Shown: one piece after another, positions 50,982-61,138 of the stretch
Layout of the letters: each line of letters opens with the position of its first letter
Position numbering within the stretch: the stretch's first letter is position 1
From: an uncultured Pirellulaceae bacterium
Lineage (GTDB): Bacteria; Planctomycetota; Planctomycetia; Pirellulales; Pirellulaceae
Assembly: GCA_937921995.1 (NCBI GenBank)
Contig: CAKZVF010000055.1
Span: 25,783-89,782 of the forward strand
Direction of reading: 5' to 3'
DNA length: 64,000 bases
Notes under the pieces: model-generated
What the model saw: the letters and a program-made list of their open reading frames with translations, nothing else
Database searches by the model: none
Told to the model about the DNA's origin: nothing
Translations under genes and position numbers: made by a program

Positions 50982-52679
50982 ATGGAAATTGGAAACATCT
51001 TGTTAGAGAACGGCTTGATCAATCAGGATCAGCTTCAGTCCGCTACTCTGTCGGCACCGTCGCAGAGCCCGGACGCGGTGTTGGCTCAACTGGTCAGCAG
51101 TGGTGCCGTCGACAAACATGCCGCGCTAACGGCTTGGGCCAAAGAAGCGGGCGTCGATTTCGTGGACCTTACGGATATGGAGATTGACCTTTCTTTGCTG
51201 GAAGGCTTTCCCCAAAAAATCATCTATCGTCAGATCCTGTTTCCGATCCGCCGAACCGAAGACACGATCGTTGTCGCCACCAATGAACCGCTGAACTTCT
51301 ATCCGCTGGATGAGATCAGCGCCGCGACGGGCCTGATCGTAGAACCGGTTCTGGCCGAAAAAAGTGAAATCGCCAAACTGATCAAGAATCACTTGGGCGT
51401 CGGTGGCGAAACCATCGACGGGCTGATCGAACAGCGCATCGAAGACAATGGCATCGAGTTGCTCGAAGAATTGGAACTCGACGGCAGCGAACTTTCGGAG
51501 ATGGCTCAAGAGGCCAGCGTCGTCCGCTTGGTGAACGAAATTCTCATGGAAGCGATCGAATCGCGCACCAGTGACGTTCACATCGAATCCCAACAAAACG
51601 GCATTGTCATCCGCTACCGCATCGACGGAATCTTGCACACTCAGCCCGTCCCGTCGGAGATCAGCCATTTCCGCTCCGCGATCGTCAGCCGCCTCAAGAT
51701 CATGGCCAAACTGAACATTGCCGAAAAACGATTGCCGCAGGACGGACGTATCAAGATCCGCGTCAAAGGACGCGACGTCGACGTGCGGATGTCGGTGATT
51801 CCCATGATTCACGGCGAAAGCTTGGTGATGAGGATCCTTGACAAAGGCGCGATGGTTTTTGATCTCCAAAGTTTGGGCATGTCCGAGGAAACGTACAACA
51901 CCTTCAGTCGGCTGATTCGTCAACCGCACGGAATCGTGCTGGTGACTGGGCCAACGGGTTCGGGTAAAACGACCACGCTGTACAGTTCGCTGATCGAGAT
52001 CAACGATGCGGCAACAAAAATCATCACCACCGAAGATCCTGTCGAATATCAGTTGGACGGGATTAACCAAATTCAAGTCCATGCCAAGATCGGGCTGACG
52101 TTTGCCCATTCGCTGCGCAGCATCCTCCGTCACGACCCTGATGTGGTGCTGGTCGGTGAGATTCGTGATCTTGAAACGGCCGAAAACGCTATCCAAGCCT
52201 CGCTGACGGGCCACATGGTTTTCAGCACACTCCACACCAACGATGCCGCCGGAGCTTTCACGCGGATGGCCGACATGGGCGTCGAACCGTTCTTGGTCGC
52301 CAGTACGGTCGAGGCCGTCATGGCTCAGCGTCTGGTGCGGCGGTTGTGCGACTGTAAGAAAGCGGTCGTTCCATCGCGCGACGATGTTCCTTCAGATTTT
52401 CCTTTCGAGCAACTCGGGTCGTCTCCGATCTACGAAGCCGTCGGTTGTCGCGAATGTCGCAACGTCGGTTACAGCGGCCGACTGGGTGTGTATGAGCTGC
52501 TGGTGGTGGACGATAAATTGCGGGAACTTGCACACGAAGGCGTTAGCACGTGGGAGATCAAAAAGGCCGCGATCGCCGGCGGCATGAAAACATTGCGTGA
52601 CGACGGTTGGCGTAAAGTCATCTCCGGCCAAACGTCCATTGAAGAAGTTCTTCGTATTACCAAAGGTGATCGAACGTAG
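50982..52679 (+). CDS. gspE: Type II secretion/type IV pilus assembly ATPase GspE/PilB
   Basis: GPTGSGKTTTLYSSL Walker A; TTEDPVEYQLDGINQIQVHAKIGLTFAHSLRSILRHDPDVVLVGEIRD; zinc motif-like CDCK..CREC. Confidence 0.95.
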   Translation: MEIGNILLENGLINQDQLQSATLSAPSQSPDAVLAQLVSSGAVDKHAALTAWAKEAGVDFVDLTDMEIDLSLLEGFPQKIIYRQILFPIRRTEDTIVVATNEPLNFYPLDEISAATGLIVEPVLAEKSEIAKLIKNHLGVGGETIDGLIEQRIEDNGIELLEELELDGSELSEMAQEASVVRLVNEILMEAIESRTSDVHIESQQNGIVIRYRIDGILHTQPVPSEISHFRSAIVSRLKIMAKLNIAEKRLPQDGRIKIRVKGRDVDVRMSVIPMIHGESLVMRILDKGAMVFDLQSLGMSEETYNTFSRLIRQPHGIVLVTGPTGSGKTTTLYSSLIEINDAATKIITTEDPVEYQLDGINQIQVHAKIGLTFAHSLRSILRHDPDVVLVGEIRDLETAENAIQASLTGHMVFSTLHTNDAAGAFTRMADMGVEPFLVASTVEAVMAQRLVRRLCDCKKAVVPSRDDVPSDFPFEQLGSSPIYEAVGCRECRNVGYSGRLGVYELLVVDDKLRELAHEGVSTWEIKKAAIAGGMKTLRDDGWRKVISGQTSIEEVLRITKGDRT

Positions 52680-52697: not shown

Positions 52698-53903
52698 ATG
52701 CCTGAATTTACCTACATCGCGCGCAGCATCGACGGGACGAAAGTCTCAGGAAAGATGACTGCAAACACCGAACGAGATGTGATCGGTGCGCTTTCGAAGG
52801 ATTCCCTGTTCCCGATCAAGGTTGAGGCTCCCGTTGAAAAGAAACCGATCACCTTCGGTTCGGGCGTGTCACCACAGAAAATTTCAGTGTTCTACGAACA
52901 ATTGGCATCCTTGCTGACCAATGGTGTGCCGCTGCTGCGATCGCTGACGATCCTACGTGACCAAACCAAAATTGAGACGCTCAAAACGACGCTGAATGAT
53001 GTGATCCGGCGCGTTGAGGACGGCGAAAATCTGTCTGATGCGTTTCAGCGTCATCCAAAGATCTTCAACGACATGGCCGTCAACATGGCTCGCGCCGGTG
53101 CTGAAGGCGGCTTTCTTGAGGACGCTCTTTCGCGCGTGGCCAAATTTACCGAACAAGCGGCCGAACTTCGGGGACGCACGATCGGGGCCATGATCTACCC
53201 TGCGGTATTGTTCAGCATGGGCAGTGTCATCGTGGCGGTGCTGTTGGTTTACTTCGTGCCAAAATTCGAATCCATGTTTGACACGTTGCGAGCCACCGGT
53301 CAATTGCCGTGGGTGACCGAAATGCTGCTGGCCTTTAGCACACGCATTCAGTTTTGGGGCCTGCCTATTTTGATCCTGATGCTGATCGTCTTTTTTGTGC
53401 TGCGTTATCAGATACAAACGCCGCGTGGCCAGATGGTTTTTGACGGCATAAAGATTAAAATACCGATGTTGGGAAGCATCTTTTTGAATCTATCGGTGGC
53501 ACGATTTTGCCGCGTGCTGGGAACGCTGCTAAAAAACGGCGTGCCGATTCTCAAAGCGCTTGATATCAGCCGCGATGCCGCGGGCAACAAAGTTCTCTCC
53601 GCGGCGATCGCCAAAGCGTCGGAGAACATCACCGCCGGTGAATCGTTGTCGGTGCCGCTGAAGAAATCAGGCCACTTCCCGCACGATGTTACCGAAATGC
53701 TCAGCGTCGCCGAAGAGTCCAATTCGTTGGATTCGGTGCTGATCAATATTTCCGATGGATTGGAAAAACAAACCATTCGTCGGCTCGATTTGATGGTTAA
53801 GCTGATCGAGCCTCTGATGTTGATGGTGATGGCGGCCGTTGTTTTGGTCGTCGTCGTTGCTCTGCTGCTGCCAATCATGAAAATGGGTAGTGCGATCGAG
53901 TAA
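52698..53903 (+). CDS. gspF: Type II secretion inner-membrane protein GspF/PilC
   Basis: FYEQLASLLTNGVPLLRSL and FCRVLGTLLKNGVPILKALDISRD tandem GspF domains. Confidence 0.95.
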   Translation: MPEFTYIARSIDGTKVSGKMTANTERDVIGALSKDSLFPIKVEAPVEKKPITFGSGVSPQKISVFYEQLASLLTNGVPLLRSLTILRDQTKIETLKTTLNDVIRRVEDGENLSDAFQRHPKIFNDMAVNMARAGAEGGFLEDALSRVAKFTEQAAELRGRTIGAMIYPAVLFSMGSVIVAVLLVYFVPKFESMFDTLRATGQLPWVTEMLLAFSTRIQFWGLPILILMLIVFFVLRYQIQTPRGQMVFDGIKIKIPMLGSIFLNLSVARFCRVLGTLLKNGVPILKALDISRDAAGNKVLSAAIAKASENITAGESLSVPLKKSGHFPHDVTEMLSVAEESNSLDSVLINISDGLEKQTIRRLDLMVKLIEPLMLMVMAAVVLVVVVALLLPIMKMGSAIE

Positions 53904-53988
53904 CCGACTTGACCGTGACTTTAAGTGTTTGCAACTTTGAAGTTTTTTATCATTGAACCCAATTGAGTTTTTGAGGAACGAGTTAGAA

Positions 53989-54438
53989 ATGAGTAATGTA
54001 AAAAATAGTTTTCGCAAAAGAACCGCGCTGCACCGGCATCGTCGTTCCGGTTTCACACTGTTGGAGCTGTTGCTTGTGATGGCGATTTTGGTCATCCTCG
54101 CCTCGCTGTCGACGGTTGCCGTTTTGAATCTTCAGTCGAGCTCGCAATCTCGAGCCGCGTTCGCGCAGATTAAAATTCTGAAGAACGCCTGCACGATGTA
54201 TAAGCTCAACGGGAATCCCTATCCCAAAACACTGGAAAATCTCATCGCACTGCCACCGGGCATGAACTCCGCGACTTGGGGCGGACCTTATTTAGAAGGC
54301 AACTCGATTCCGCTCGATCCGTGGCAAAACCCGTTCAAGTACTCTGCCAACGATGCGGCCCAGCAGGTTTTCATCTCGTCCGCTGGCAAAGACGGCCAAC
54401 ATGGAACCGCGGACGACATCCCCGGCAACAATGGCTAA
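53989..54438 (+). CDS. gspG: Type II secretion major pseudopilin GspG-like
   Basis: RRSGFTLLELLLVMAILVILASLS prepilin motif; GPYLEGNSIPLDPWQNPFKY..DGQHGTADDI. Confidence 0.92.
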   Translation: MSNVKNSFRKRTALHRHRRSGFTLLELLLVMAILVILASLSTVAVLNLQSSSQSRAAFAQIKILKNACTMYKLNGNPYPKTLENLIALPPGMNSATWGGPYLEGNSIPLDPWQNPFKYSANDAAQQVFISSAGKDGQHGTADDIPGNNG

Positions 54439-54549
54439 CCGATTCTTCTCCACTGTTGAACGCACGGCTATTTGCTAAGTACGTGCCGCGCGATTGTCGC
54501 GCGGTGCTTCGATGCTCACACGCGGTCAGCGTTTCAGCTTAATTTATCA

Positions 54550-55128
54550 ATGACAGCAACTCGTCCCCACCATCGAAATGCGTTCTCCTTGATCGAATTG
54601 ATTCTGGTGATGGGGGTCATCGTCATGATTTTTTCGCTGGCGATTCCACTGGCAACACGGGCACTTGGATCGCACGCGCTTAGGCAATCCGCCGACCGCG
54701 TGCGTGTGGCGATGGGCAAGGCGCGCGTTGAAGCGATCAAGTCTGGGAAGATTCACGCGCTGTTTCTACAGACCAACAGCGATTGGTTCAACGTCGCTCC
54801 GTTTTCTCAGATTTCGGCGCAGCAAGGCCTCGCGGCCAGACAGACGCAGCTCAATGCCAACCAGATCCGAACCGACCTCGAAGACAACCAACTGCCCAAA
54901 GGCATTTTCTTCGCCGAAGGGATTACCTCAAACGATGGGAGGTCGGCCGACGCGTTCAGCCAAAACGGCGGCGGTGGTAATTCACAGATTAAACCCATTT
55001 TGTTTTACCCAGACGGAACGGCCCAAGACGCCAGAGTTTTTCTCAGGGATGAACAAGCAAACATGACGTCGGTTCAGCTTCGTGGGCTGACAGGCATCGC
55101 AAAGACAGTGAAGACCCAGCAAAACTGA
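54550..55128 (+). CDS. Pseudopilin, GspH-like
   Basis: RNAFSLIELILVMGVIVMIFSLAIPLATRAL prepilin N-terminus; ATG at 54550 preferred to 54472. Confidence 0.8.
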   Translation: MTATRPHHRNAFSLIELILVMGVIVMIFSLAIPLATRALGSHALRQSADRVRVAMGKARVEAIKSGKIHALFLQTNSDWFNVAPFSQISAQQGLAARQTQLNANQIRTDLEDNQLPKGIFFAEGITSNDGRSADAFSQNGGGGNSQIKPILFYPDGTAQDARVFLRDEQANMTSVQLRGLTGIAKTVKTQQN

Positions 55129-55240: not shown

Positions 55241-55648
55241 ATGAAACATCACCATCGACACAACAAAAAACGCAACCGGAGCGGGCTGAGCCTGCTTGAG
55301 GTGATTTTGTCGATCGCGATTCTTGGGACGTCGATGGCGATAATAGGGCAATTTTTCTATCTCGGTTACCGCGCGGCCGACCGAGCACGTCGTCAGTTCG
55401 ATGCGACCTTGATCTGTGATTCGGTGATGGCCGAACTCGCCGCTGGCGTGATTGAACCCCAGTCCATCGGCGGCGCAGAAGCCCCCAACAATCCGCGCTG
55501 GCAATATTCGGTCGACGTCGTGAATTCAGATATCAACGGGCTGCTATTGGCGACCGTATCGGTGCGTCAACGCAACGAAGATAACATCGAAATGTCATTG
55601 GTGCGGTTGCTGCCGGATCCTGACTATCTACCGGGGGAAGAATTTTGA
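55241..55648 (+). CDS. Pseudopilin, GspI-like
   Basis: RSGLSLLEVILSIAILGTSMAIIGQF. Confidence 0.8.
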   Translation: MKHHHRHNKKRNRSGLSLLEVILSIAILGTSMAIIGQFFYLGYRAADRARRQFDATLICDSVMAELAAGVIEPQSIGGAEAPNNPRWQYSVDVVNSDINGLLLATVSVRQRNEDNIEMSLVRLLPDPDYLPGEEF

Positions 55649-56652
55649 AAACTTCTTCACTCAAACAAACTAATACGGCGGGAGCACGGCCTGCCTTTAC
55701 GTTGCTGGAACTGTTATTGGCGCTGGCGTTGACGGTGGTCGTCATCAGCACTATCGCGACGGCGATCCAAGTCAATCTGTTCTCGCTCACGCGTGCCCAG
55801 GCAAACATAGAACGCAAACAAATCGCGCGTAGTGTCATGGCCATGATCGGCAACGACATCCGCGCCGCGGTACAGTTTCGCGCGGCCGATTTTTCGGGAC
55901 TTGAAGAGGTCTTGCTGTCGCAGCAAATGATCGCCGGCATCCAACCCACCGACATCAGCAGCGCTTCAGCCGACGAACTTTCGCCCGATTCCATCACCGT
56001 CGATGCCATCCAATCAGCGGTGGAAGCACAACAGGCTCAATCGCAAACGCAATCACAACCAGACACCGAAGAATTCACTTCCTCCGACGATGTTTCCGAC
56101 GAAGAAGAAGTTGACTGGTCGGTGGGTTTGGTGGGCGACGCGAACTTCATCATGCTGGACATCAGCCGACTCCCGCGTATCGACCAATACCATCCGCTGA
56201 TTCAAACCGCTCAAGATGCCGTGACAACAGGTTCGGACATTAAACAGGTCGTCTACTATGTCGCTGCCGTCGGCGGTCAGACCGGTGCGAACAACGTGCT
56301 TGTGGACGAATCTAATGTGAATCGGCGAGGGTTGTTTCGGGACGAAATTGATCGCGCGGTGGCCTTCTATCAGGGCGGCACCAACCCGGGAACGCCCAAG
56401 GATTATTCGCAATTGATTGCCACCGAAGTGGTTCAGATTCAGTTTCGCTATTTTGATGGGACCGATTGGCAATCACAGTGGGATTCCACAGAGAACGCGG
56501 GCTTTCCCTCGGCCGTCGAGATCAACATCGTCGTGGACACCAGCCCGCTGGCCGACCCGACCAACGCCTATCAAAATGACGGTCGATTTGAAAACTATCG
56601 TAGCGTCGTTCATCTTCCTCTGGCCGAGATCGAGGAGGAAGAAGATGAATAG
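55645..56652 (+). CDS. Pseudopilin, GspJ-like
   Basis: RPAFTLLELLLALALTVVVIST; TTG start overlapping the upstream TGA. Confidence 0.8.
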   Translation: MKTSSLKQTNTAGARPAFTLLELLLALALTVVVISTIATAIQVNLFSLTRAQANIERKQIARSVMAMIGNDIRAAVQFRAADFSGLEEVLLSQQMIAGIQPTDISSASADELSPDSITVDAIQSAVEAQQAQSQTQSQPDTEEFTSSDDVSDEEEVDWSVGLVGDANFIMLDISRLPRIDQYHPLIQTAQDAVTTGSDIKQVVYYVAAVGGQTGANNVLVDESNVNRRGLFRDEIDRAVAFYQGGTNPGTPKDYSQLIATEVVQIQFRYFDGTDWQSQWDSTENAGFPSAVEINIVVDTSPLADPTNAYQNDGRFENYRSVVHLPLAEIEEEEDE

Positions 56653-58219
56653 TCGCCGTGGAAAACTCCGCCAACGCAATGATGGTTTTTTGCTGATCAT
56701 TGTTTTGGTCACGATCGTGATGATGACGTTGGCCGCCTATACATTCACGTCTTTGATGCAGATCGAATTTCAAGCGTCGCGCGTGTTGTCGCGGCGCGTC
56801 CAATCGAAATACTTGGCCGATTCGGGCGTCGATTACGTTCGGTTGTTTTTGGCATCGGAGCGTCAAGAAATCCACGCCAATGGCGGGCTGTGGGATAACG
56901 CTGACATGTTCCAAGCCGTCCCCGCAGCGGTCGACGTGAACAACCTTGAATTGGTGGGGCGTTTTTCGATCGTCGGTCCGAACCTTAACGACGATGGGAT
57001 TCCTGAAGGCTATCGTTTTGGGTTGGTCGATGAATCCAGCAAAATCAACGTTAACGCTTTGCCGTATTATGACAGCTGGCAACCCGGCAGTGCGCGCCAA
57101 ATCCTGATGGCGCTGCCTTCGATGACCGAAGAAGTTGCCGACGCGATTCTCGACTGGGTCGACAGCGACGACGACATCCGGGAATTCGGCACCGAAGGAT
57201 CGTTCTACCGCGGGCAGTCGCCGCCGTACGATGTGAAAAACGGGCCGATGGACAGCTTGGACGAAATGTTGCTTATTCGTGACATCACGCCGGATTTGCT
57301 GTTTGGTTTGGACATCAATCGAAACGGCGTTTTGGATGACGTTGAGACCGTCGGCACCAATGCTTCCTCTTTGGAGGCCGACATGTATTTGGGATGGGCC
57401 AACTACATTACGCTGTTCAGCAAAGAAACGAACCAAAATGGCGAAGGGCTGACGCGTATCAACATCAATGGCCAGGACCTTGACCAGCTGCAAGATGATT
57501 TAAAGTCGGCGTTCAACGACGAGTGGACCAACTATATTATTCATTACCGAATTTCGGGACCGGCCTCGATCGTGCCCACGCCCATCGACAACACCATTGT
57601 CTCAGCGGCCGAAGTTGATCCGAATCTGACCGGCGAAGAAACAGGCGGGTTTACTTTTTCCAGCGTCGTAGATTTGGTTGACACTTATGTTGAAACCACC
57701 GATGAAGAGGGAGAAACCGTTTACCTTCAATCGCCCATCAATGTTCAATCACTGGGCGTTGCCATGACCACCGCAATGAAAAGCTTGACGGTGTACGAAG
57801 GCGAATCAATTCCTGGCCGCATCAATATCATGCAAGCCCCGCGCCGGACGCTCGAAGGCATCCCCGGCATGGATTCCGAATTAATCGACACCATCATTCA
57901 GGTACGCGAATACGAACTGGACGATCCCGATTTTCTGGATATCAATCGCAATTACGAGACGTGGTTGCTGACTGAATTTCTGGTCGATGTGCCAACGATG
58001 CGGTCGTTGATGCCGTTCATCTGTGTCGGTGGTGACGTTTATCAGGCGGAGGTGATCGGATATTTCGGCGACGGGGTTGGAACCTCGCGGGCTGAGGCGA
58101 TTATTGATGCCACCGCAGATATCCCTAAGCTAATATTTTGGCGAGACAAAACGCATTTGCAGGGCACATTCTCGGTCGATGTGCTCGGCGGCGACTTTGG
58201 TTCGGGCAGCGATTTTTGA
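56645..58219 (+). CDS. General secretion pathway protein K-like
   Basis: RNDGFLLIIVLVTIVMMTLAAYTFTSLMQIEFQASRV; helix-hairpin-helix-like RRTLEGIPGMDSELIDTIIQVRE; start at 56645 overlaps the upstream stop. Confidence 0.85.
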   Translation: MNSRRGKLRQRNDGFLLIIVLVTIVMMTLAAYTFTSLMQIEFQASRVLSRRVQSKYLADSGVDYVRLFLASERQEIHANGGLWDNADMFQAVPAAVDVNNLELVGRFSIVGPNLNDDGIPEGYRFGLVDESSKINVNALPYYDSWQPGSARQILMALPSMTEEVADAILDWVDSDDDIREFGTEGSFYRGQSPPYDVKNGPMDSLDEMLLIRDITPDLLFGLDINRNGVLDDVETVGTNASSLEADMYLGWANYITLFSKETNQNGEGLTRININGQDLDQLQDDLKSAFNDEWTNYIIHYRISGPASIVPTPIDNTIVSAAEVDPNLTGEETGGFTFSSVVDLVDTYVETTDEEGETVYLQSPINVQSLGVAMTTAMKSLTVYEGESIPGRINIMQAPRRTLEGIPGMDSELIDTIIQVREYELDDPDFLDINRNYETWLLTEFLVDVPTMRSLMPFICVGGDVYQAEVIGYFGDGVGTSRAEAIIDATADIPKLIFWRDKTHLQGTFSVDVLGGDFGSGSDF

Positions 58220-58355: not shown

Positions 58356-59882
58356 ATGGCTTTTGTTGCAATCGAAATTTCAGAAGATCAATTGCTGGTG
58401 GCGATCGCGCAAAAATCGGGACTGCGATGTCGCATCGACAACGTCTTCGACTTGGACACCTCCGATAGCACCGATGAACAATCTGGCGAAGCCGTTAAGG
58501 AGAAACTGAATTCTTTGGGCGTGTCGAAGTCCGTTGCCATCGCCATCGTCAGTCGTTCTTTGGCAGAGATCCGGGAGGTTACCGTTCCGCCTGCTCCGGA
58601 CAACGAACTGCCGGACATGATTCGGTTCCAAGCACGTAACGAATTCGCGTCACTCAACGATCAGTGGAAACTGGACTACGTCACGCTGACCGACGATCCG
58701 ACGTCGCCACGGAAAGTACTGGCAGCGGCGATTTCGCCTGATTTAGAAAATAAGATCCAAACGATCTGTCAACATGCGGGGCTTAAGCTCAAACGTGTTG
58801 TCTTGCGTCCCTTCGCGACGTTGGATCTGTTGAAGCCGCATCTATCCAACGACGCGCTTTCGTTGATCGTGGATCAGAACACCGATTCGACGGACATGAG
58901 CATTGTCAAAGGTGACATGCTGCTTTCGACACGCACCGTACGACTTCCCGACTCGCTGACGCCGGAACAGTCCTCGAAACAACTGATCACCGAAGTCCGC
59001 CGCACGGTGGCCTCGCATAAGATCTCCGCCGACAGCGACGCGATCCAGGACATCGTCGTTCCCGGCCAAGAGGTCCAACACCGGCATCTCAAAGGCAACC
59101 TCGAAGGGCAATTGGGAATGAACGTGAAGTTCTTGTCCCCCTTCGACCTCGCCGACGTCCAGAGTGGACTGGACAAAGACAGTGCTGTTAGCCCGGCGCG
59201 GTTTGCGTCTTTGTTTGGTGCGTTGGAAACCGAAGTTGCCGGCGAGCAGCCTCGTCTGGATTTCGTGAACGTGCGAAAAACAGAGGAAATCAAAACCGAT
59301 TATTCGAAGCTGTATTTCTACGGAGCGCTAGCGGCGGCAGTCGCCGTCGTCGGAATGTTTCTCGCGTGGATGATCCTTAGATCTCAAGCTTCAGCGATTG
59401 AAACCGCCAAGGCGAATTTGCTCGCCGCGGTCGAGGTGAATCAGGGCAACGGCACGATTCCGCCGGTTGAACAACAGCTGAAAGACGTTGGCGTGATCGA
59501 CCAGTGGAAAACAGAAGAAATCAACTGGCTGACAGAGCTTTCGCAATTCAGCCAACGATACCTATTGCCCGATGATGTCATCGCTGATTCGTTCACCGCA
59601 TCGGTCCAACGCGACGGGACTCCCAAGATCGAACTATCGGGCCGTATCGTCGATGATCTGGAAAAAACGGACCAACTGATTCGGGAACTGAACAAACGTC
59701 CCTACGAAGTTCAAACCATTGACACCGGAACGGCTCCTCCAGACCAGCAAAGCGAATACCCTTCGACGTTTGTTTACCATTTTCAATTACCTGATTCAGC
59801 GCTAACGAATCTGAATATTTTGAACCGGCGGGCTTCCCAATTCGGTAAAACGGCAACCTCAAAATCAGGGAGCCAGCCATGA
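58356..59882 (+). CDS. PilM/GspL-like assembly protein
   Basis: MAFVAIEISEDQLLVAIAQKSGLRCRID actin-like N-term; TM segment LYFYGALAAAVAVVGMFLAWMIL followed by a periplasmic PilN-like part. Confidence 0.75.
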   Translation: MAFVAIEISEDQLLVAIAQKSGLRCRIDNVFDLDTSDSTDEQSGEAVKEKLNSLGVSKSVAIAIVSRSLAEIREVTVPPAPDNELPDMIRFQARNEFASLNDQWKLDYVTLTDDPTSPRKVLAAAISPDLENKIQTICQHAGLKLKRVVLRPFATLDLLKPHLSNDALSLIVDQNTDSTDMSIVKGDMLLSTRTVRLPDSLTPEQSSKQLITEVRRTVASHKISADSDAIQDIVVPGQEVQHRHLKGNLEGQLGMNVKFLSPFDLADVQSGLDKDSAVSPARFASLFGALETEVAGEQPRLDFVNVRKTEEIKTDYSKLYFYGALAAAVAVVGMFLAWMILRSQASAIETAKANLLAAVEVNQGNGTIPPVEQQLKDVGVIDQWKTEEINWLTELSQFSQRYLLPDDVIADSFTASVQRDGTPKIELSGRIVDDLEKTDQLIRELNKRPYEVQTIDTGTAPPDQQSEYPSTFVYHFQLPDSALTNLNILNRRASQFGKTATSKSGSQP

Positions 59883-61138
59883 TCGAAAACATGACGCAAA
59901 GAGAAAAAACGCTGGCGGGAGTAACCGTCGGCGCATTGGTTGTCGCGCTGCTGTTTGGAATATTCTTTTGGTTCCTCAATAGTTACAACAGTAACGCTGC
60001 CGTTTTGCAGGGAATTGATTCACGCATCAGCGACCAAGAAAATCTTACATTGCAGGGCATGCAGGCGGCCACACGGAAGCGTTACTATGTTCAGACCAGC
60101 CCTACCAGTAAGATCTCGGACGCAAAAAACCAATACATCGCGTGGCTGAACAAAACACTCCGCGAAGACATCGGTGTCAATCTGACTGGCGTCGACCCTG
60201 GCAGGAATCTAACGCTCAAATCCGACACGAAAGTTGTGGCGGAGCAAATGTTGTTTACGATTCGCCCCAAGTTGAAGTTGAAACAGTTGGTTGAATTTTT
60301 AAACGCGTTTTACTCTGTCGATACGCTGCATCGGATAAAGTTATTGAAGTTGACGCCGCTCACTGAATCCACAGGAAAGAAAGCTGCACGAACGCGCACG
60401 GGCGAACTTTCAGCGCAGATTCAGATCGAAGTCTTGGTGCTCAAGGACGGTGTTGAACGCGACCAAATTGCGAACGTCTATCGAGATGCTGGCATTCCAA
60501 TCGAAAAAGCCATGGAAACGATTGTACGCCGTGACGTTTTCGGTGCGGCCAATAATGCACCAACGGTTAAGGTGAACAAAAGTTCGTCTTATGTATCTGG
60601 AAAACCTGTTTCCATTAACGTCACCACCAGCGACGCAGACGAAGAAGACTTGCTGACGATGGAGCTGATCGAATCCGAAGTGGAAGAAGCAGAATTGAAA
60701 CCTGACGCAAAAGGGAAGAAGGCAAAATTGACGATCCCTGGGCAGACTGCTGGGAAATATAAATTATTGATTCGCGTTACCGACAATGGCTTGCCCGCGA
60801 AATCGTCCGAGCAAAAGGTGGAGCTTACTTTCAAGGATCCTCCCCCAAAAAAGAAAGCTCCTCCAAAACCCAAAAAACCACCGCCACCTAAAAATGCACC
60901 GAAGACTTTTATTACCAGCAACCTGAAAGCGGATGGCATCTGGCGTGTACTGATTACATCGCGAATGGATGGTAAGAAGTATCGTTTGACCGAAGGCGAA
61001 AGTTTCGAGCTGGATGGACGCGAATGGGAAGTGATGGAAATTACGCGCGATTCAGCAACATTTTCTGTCGATGGACAAGAGGTAGAACTTGAACGTGGCG
61101 TTCCGTTCTCCGAAGCCGACTTGGAAGATGACGAGTAA
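59879..61138 (+). CDS. PilO/GspM-like protein with Ig-like middle and PilP/GspC-like C-terminal segment
   Basis: N-terminal TM LAGVTVGALVVALLFGIFFWFLNSY; periplasmic coiled/ferredoxin-like region; KPVSINVTTSDADEEDL Ig-like; PPPKKKAPPKPKKPPPPK linker; GIWRVLITSRMDGKKYRLTEGESFELDGREWEVMEITRDSATFSVDGQEVEL. ATGA overlap with the upstream stop. Confidence 0.65.
   Translation: MIENMTQREKTLAGVTVGALVVALLFGIFFWFLNSYNSNAAVLQGIDSRISDQENLTLQGMQAATRKRYYVQTSPTSKISDAKNQYIAWLNKTLREDIGVNLTGVDPGRNLTLKSDTKVVAEQMLFTIRPKLKLKQLVEFLNAFYSVDTLHRIKLLKLTPLTESTGKKAARTRTGELSAQIQIEVLVLKDGVERDQIANVYRDAGIPIEKAMETIVRRDVFGAANNAPTVKVNKSSSYVSGKPVSINVTTSDADEEDLLTMELIESEVEEAELKPDAKGKKAKLTIPGQTAGKYKLLIRVTDNGLPAKSSEQKVELTFKDPPPKKKAPPKPKKPPPPKNAPKTFITSNLKADGIWRVLITSRMDGKKYRLTEGESFELDGREWEVMEITRDSATFSVDGQEVELERGVPFSEADLEDDE

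Follow-up and report, generated by a model that had tools for sequence, protein, structure and literature searches.

A few fusions of PilO with PilP have been reported in type IV pili (T4P), for example Q88CU9 of Pseudomonas putida, and such fusions were earlier used to argue for a 1:1 ratio of the two proteins (PMC3169554). In the type II secretion system (T2SS), GspL has been described as a PilM-PilN fusion (PMC10191384), which offers a precedent for neighbouring platform subunits in one chain, though with another subunit pair than the one considered here. Regarding GspC, its contact with the N-domains (N0) of the secretin has been shown for ETEC GspC–GspD (PMC3169554), and GspC proteins differ in their second periplasmic region (PMC11981180). 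In T2SS, the number of GspC copies per GspM/L is unsettled, the Klebsiella machine having 12 GspC copies compared with six of GspL/M and 15 secretin subunits (PMC11981180). A published T2SS detection model treats gspC as mandatory, and the main text of that paper does not mention Planctomycetes (PMC6668835).

The product of the gene described here is very probably a natural fusion that joins GspM (PilO-like) to GspC (PilP-like) of a planctomycete T2SS and has one Ig/cadherin domain within its GspC moiety, placed after an RNxF motif and before the HR domain. Similar to the PilO-PilP fusions of T4P, two homologous connectors are joined in the same order; unlike those few cases, for which no Ig domain is mentioned, it belongs to a T2SS-type operon, contains an inserted Ig/cadherin domain and is near-universal in the sampled family. 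The PilO–PilP fusion in T4P is thus known already, and what appears new is that GspM and GspC are joined in a T2SS operon, together with the Ig insert, no description of either having been found in the literature searched, which took in few subscription papers.

Operon and domain layout

The window, a stretch of 64,000 nucleotides from an uncultured Pirellulaceae bacterium, holds an intact ORF at 59879-61138 on the + strand, whose first 4 nt overlap the end of gspL. As the first-pass annotation had proposed, it closes a T2SS-like operon, in which profile matches and order give gspE-F-G-H-I-J-K-L upstream of it:

50982..52679, + strand, gspE (T2SSE 3.7e-136)
52698..53903, + strand, gspF (T2SSF 1.5e-57)
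53953..54438, + strand, gspG (TIGR01710 above the curated cut-off; coordinates are those of the ORF start, the true start being probably internal)
54472..55128, + strand, gspH-like (GspH 0.0038, under the Pfam cut-off; N_methyl; gene order; ORF start given, true start probably internal)
55241..55648, + strand, gspI-like (TIGR01707 1e-7, under the curated cut-off; gene order)
55645..56652, + strand, gspJ (T2SSJ 8e-7)
56645..58219, + strand, gspK (T2SSK_1st 6.3e-14; T2SS_GspK 2.4e-22)
58356..59882, + strand, gspL, PilM/PilN-like (pilM 5.5e-13)
59879..61138, + strand, predicted GspM-Ig-GspC fusion gene, 419 aa, ATG start, last gene of the gsp operon

The T2SS gene set is therefore represented by gspE, gspF and gspG, the minor pseudopilins H to K (H and I by weak profile and order) and GspL. 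No gspC, pilP or secretin gene lies inside the gsp cluster, in agreement with the earlier reading, and the sole secretin that Pfam detects in the assembly (4.8 Mb, 77% complete) is on contig C266. A prepilin peptidase (Peptidase_A24) is on contig C98, so that secretin and prepilin peptidase are both encoded in this genome, which also has a separate PilB/PilT cluster elsewhere.

The encoded protein is divided as follows:

59909..59977, + strand, the only transmembrane helix, near the N-terminus, about residues 11-33 (seen in the sequence as the hydrophobic run LAGVTVGALVVALLFGIFFWFLN; helix 7-73 in the model)
60101..60448, + strand, periplasmic PilO/GspM-like domain, about residues 75-190 (strands and helices of the model; Foldseek match to the PilO chain 3jc8_Oa; GspM_XpsM in 20/43 and T2SSM in 7/43 members)
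60527..60556, + strand, RRDVFGAANN motif at residues 217-226 (consensus ILxRNxFGPPN, with R218 invariant and N225 at 90% or more)
60554..60838, + strand, Ig/cadherin-like domain, residues 226-320 (He_PIG, Big_9 and Cadherin of Pfam; PDB cadherins by profile and fold)
60839..60889, + strand, Pro/Lys-rich linker, residues 321-337 (read from the sequence)
60890..61111, + strand, C-terminal GspC-HR/PilP-like beta domain, residues 338-411 (AF2, Foldseek, hhalign)

The full-chain AF2 model, built from an alignment of 43 homologues, has a pLDDT of 91.4 and consists of a long N-terminal helix that includes the membrane segment, a PilO-like α/β domain (up to about residue 190), the RxxFG motif on a short helix, the Ig/cadherin sandwich at 226-320 and a seven-stranded C-terminal domain at 338-411. 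Pfam He_PIG, Big_9 or Cadherin are matched by 15-19 of the 43 members each. In relatives with a stand-alone GspC, the mature part of that protein starts at the counterpart of RRDVFGAANN (ERNIF, TRNIF and ERSMF in L108, L106 and L104, respectively), and consequently the GspC moiety of the fusion begins near residue 205, having the Ig domain inside it. The first-pass annotation had described a single transmembrane segment with a PilO-like periplasmic part, an Ig/cadherin-like segment, a Pro/Lys linker and a small C-terminal beta domain; these segments and their order are borne out, and the refinement concerns the GspC moiety, which starts upstream of the Ig domain and not after the linker.

Identity of the GspM and GspC moieties

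Regarding the N-terminal part, the PilO of the Myxococcus pilus machine (3jc8_Oa) was found at rank 28 (E 1.3e-4) in the Foldseek search with the whole model, which was dominated by cadherins. The NCBIfam profile GspM_XpsM matches 20 of 43 family members, with a best E of 6.6e-6 (its curated cut-off is 60 bits, and passing of this cut-off was not reported), and T2SSM of Pfam matches 7 of 43; searched singly, the window's own protein gave no GspM/PilO profile match. In common with GspM of the XpsM type and PilO (3jc8 chain O), the protein has an N-terminal transmembrane segment, a coiled helix and a ferredoxin-like periplasmic domain, as seen in the model and by the PilO fold match, and its gene follows gspL, with the same order in the windows read from relatives; in contrast to them, it has about 230 additional residues, which include the Ig and HR domains.

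Since cadherins dominated the whole-protein search, the C-terminal domain was modelled alone (AF2 pLDDT 91.2) and compared with 350,542 PDB chains. The top three Foldseek matches were PilP (3jc8_Pa), the GspC HR domain (3oss_C) and PilP (2ivw), each with a probability of 1.00 and an E of only 0.017-0.078, and a further PilP-containing entry and the PulC HR domain stood at ranks 23 and 32. Because these E values are modest, independent support was sought. By hhalign, the HR set of the target aligned with seven stand-alone GspC-like HR domains with an E of 2.1e-10 and a score of 51, compared with a maximum score of 16.4 in 30 column shuffles. The matches to the single E. coli proteins GspC (E 0.003) and HofP (0.14) are weak and not significant, and thus it is the fold, the gene order and the planctomycete intermediates that link the domain to proteobacterial GspC. 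In addition, the NCBIfam profile GspC_delta matches 3 of the 43 fusion members. Neither T2SSC nor PilP of Pfam matched the target itself, and PilP gave no match anywhere, controls included, so its absence carries no information. With the target as a single sequence, searches of the PDB and of protein families returned weak matches only. As a guide to fold, the PDB profile search with the C-terminal domain was set aside, being misled by designed repeat proteins.

The same profile search meets several small beta folds before GspC (3oss_C at an E of only 0.52), which, together with Foldseek E values above 0.01, could point to a generic small beta barrel (SH3, CsrA or L21-like) unrelated to GspC, the protein then being a lengthened GspM whose periplasmic domains serve adhesion or bind the cell wall. 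This reading is highly improbable, as GspC and PilP fill the leading fold ranks, the stand-alone homologues placed between gspM and gspD match GspC profiles, and three fusion members match GspC_delta themselves. The resemblance to PilP and GspC-HR that had been proposed from the letters alone is therefore upheld by the structural comparison, in which no unrelated fold ranked higher.

The GspC moiety of the fusion shares with GspC (PulC, OutC, EpsC; 3oss, 6hcg) the all-beta HR fold, the Pro-rich linker and, in relatives, the place between gspM and gspD, and it differs by the Ig domain that precedes HR and by the absence of two hallmarks, an own N-terminal transmembrane segment and a C-terminal PDZ or coiled-coil region. 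The transmembrane segment is borrowed from the GspM moiety, and the chain ends right after HR. For this reason, the protein is filed as a GspM-GspC fusion and not as a canonical GspC.

The nature of the operon itself has to be weighed, as gspL obtains its profile match from pilM, the fold at the C-terminus is similar to both PilP and GspC, T4P offer precedents for joined PilO and PilP (PMC3169554), and the orphan secretin is kept in genomes without the operon. These features would also suit a type IV pilus-like filament system, with a PilO-PilP fusion acting in pilus assembly or polysaccharide uptake. Such a system is unlikely, considering that GspG lies above the T2SS equivalog cut-off, that GspK, GspJ, GspI-like and GspH-like pseudopilins are all present, that the best-matched connector profile across members is GspM_XpsM and that the genome has its own PilB/PilT cluster apart from the operon.

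Conservation and gene order in relatives

Homologues are present in 115 of the 119 sampled genomes of the family, most of them aligned over the full length, and this conservation rules out a chance ORF or a mis-assembly. In the windows read, gspL is succeeded by the fusion gene within one operon, and in most cases the two overlap by 4 nt. All four genomes without the fusion also lack a gspK match, and for this reason the operon and the fusion appear to be retained, or lost, as a unit.

In the assembly of the window, an HR profile that included the stand-alone types gave one hit, the target (2.9e-23), and no second HR domain, the next match having an E of 0.12 over 27 residues. The separate gspC or pilP that would have spoken against the first-pass annotation was thus not found in this assembly; the case that the genome has no other gspC is strong but not final, because at 77% completeness a gspC could have been missed. 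Among 60 family genomes, T2SSC of Pfam had no match in 58, with its controls working, and the HR search gave only a handful of matches in short ORFs (about 150-254 aa). A few relatives, such as G022 and G063, do have a separate short HR protein, located in another operon. This is a third, rarer T2SS-type operon of the family, where the GspC gene is separate and adjoins the GspL gene:

L069:131-2007, - strand, third operon type in G022, separate GspC (T2SSC 5e-8)
L051:3139-5483, - strand, third operon type in G063, separate GspC (weak T2SSC, 0.03)

The L051 locus also has a further small membrane-protein gene that is GspM-like in position. As gspC is hidden inside another gene, and as it is mandatory in one detection model (PMC6668835), planctomycete T2SS may escape detection.

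In five distant Planctomycetota genomes (L104-L108), gspL is followed by a stand-alone gspM (180-195 aa), a stand-alone GspC-like gene and an STN/secretin ORF. The GspM of L104 matches GspM_XpsM with 2e-11, and the secretin of the same locus has the N0 and secretin pore domains of Pfam. The stand-alone GspC-like proteins have an RNIF/RSMF-type motif and an HR domain; GspC_delta matches four of their genes (E 9e-9 to 2e-4), and that of L106 also matches T2SSC (1e-4). The window's protein represents these M and C parts joined in the same order as the separate gspM-gspC of the relatives. Domain folds, GspM_XpsM and GspC_delta matches and this shared order together favour the initial proposal of one chain merging the two inner-membrane connectors.

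The fusions themselves vary in length. Many family genomes have a second gspE-L operon ending in an Ig-free M-C fusion of about 280-380 aa (L054-L065), and Ig-free M-C proteins are also found in the same class or beyond it (L112-L115). Fusions with one Ig domain have about 390-460 aa, and in versions of 560-640 aa, whose insert is longer, one or two Ig domains can be recognised (L110, L111, L116, L121). Fusions without Ig, with one Ig and with a longer insert form a natural series. In a tree of the PilO domain, stand-alone GspM falls outside the main fusion group, and the tree does not separate a single gain of the Ig domain from its loss in the M-C paralogues.

Directly 3' of the Ig-free M-C fusion in one second operon is a gene for a small secreted protein of no clear family (L054:8024-8725, - strand). 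Two other loci (L118:1778-3178 and L119:4068-5480, both on the - strand) encode PilO proteins of 467-471 aa whose long C-terminal extension closes with a small stretch that looks rich in beta structure, in L118 with a secretin gene just downstream. To judge by their sequences, these may be a PilO-PilP-like fusion of independent origin, in a T4P-type cluster where PilN is separate.

Probable secretin partner and proposed arrangement

The first-pass annotation had named a secretin gene elsewhere in the genome as a check, and the only secretin recognised by Pfam is an orphan of 1302 aa (G000:C266:6067-9975, L033), probably the partner of the gsp operon, with relatives in 60 of the 60 family genomes searched. 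Its repeat-like N-terminal extension, about 640 residues in length, precedes an N0/STN-like stretch at about residues 700-775, seen by eye and by a match of 0.57 to an STN-type signalling domain in the PDB; Pfam does not recognise an N0 domain in this secretin. The C266 type is kept in G014 and G054, both without the fusion and gspK, and consequently it is not exclusive to the gsp system. Considering this retention and the PilB/PilT cluster of the own genome, type IV pili may use the orphan secretin as well, or it may serve more than one system.

Contigs C172 and C271 were considered as second secretin candidates of the genome and rejected, as they encode VWA proteins without a full pore domain. 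The protein on C172 (L142:4634-9010, - strand, 1458 aa) has an STN/N0-like stretch and a part similar to the N-terminal region of secretins, with no pore domain.

The domain layout suggests how the fused protein might be arranged. The N-terminal helix would anchor the chain in the inner membrane, and the PilO/GspM domain would sit in the platform, pairing with GspL. The Ig domain and the Pro-rich linker could then form a strut across the periplasm, with a spacer role, and the HR domain is predicted, by analogy with GspC–GspD in ETEC, to dock on the periplasmic N-domains (N0) of a secretin from another locus, which is probably the C266 orphan. With both connectors in a single chain, GspM:GspC would be fixed at 1:1.

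It can be asked if the HR domain still addresses a secretin, as the N0 of the orphan is too divergent for Pfam and Ig domains are often carbohydrate-binding. HR could be vestigial or retuned to a non-secretin target, such as peptidoglycan or an inner-membrane partner, with the Ig domain making the envelope contact. This is quite unlikely, since HR is found in nearly every family member and it is the Ig part that differs in length and that the M-C paralogues lack.

Returning to a secretin-docking HR domain, we tentatively suggest that the T2SS platform of this family could be built on a covalent 1:1 GspM-GspC chain, where the Ig modules (none, one or more in relatives) would act as a length-adjustable periplasmic strut. 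Symmetry and spacing between platform and secretin would then be set differently from the Klebsiella machine, which has twice as many GspC as GspM, a possibility that we hold with some doubt. In any case, the family-wide fusion provides a T2SS where the encoded ratio of GspM to GspC chains can only be 1:1 and can be imaged.

In some relatives, the secretin gene comes directly after the fused gene (L117, L120). The ORF of L117 has at least eight Secretin_N repeats, and in genome G383 a secretin of 3575 aa with 34 Secretin_N repeats lies directly 3' of the fused M-C gene (L131:5898-16622, - strand). The secretins of L131 and L117 represent unusually long periplasmic stacks.
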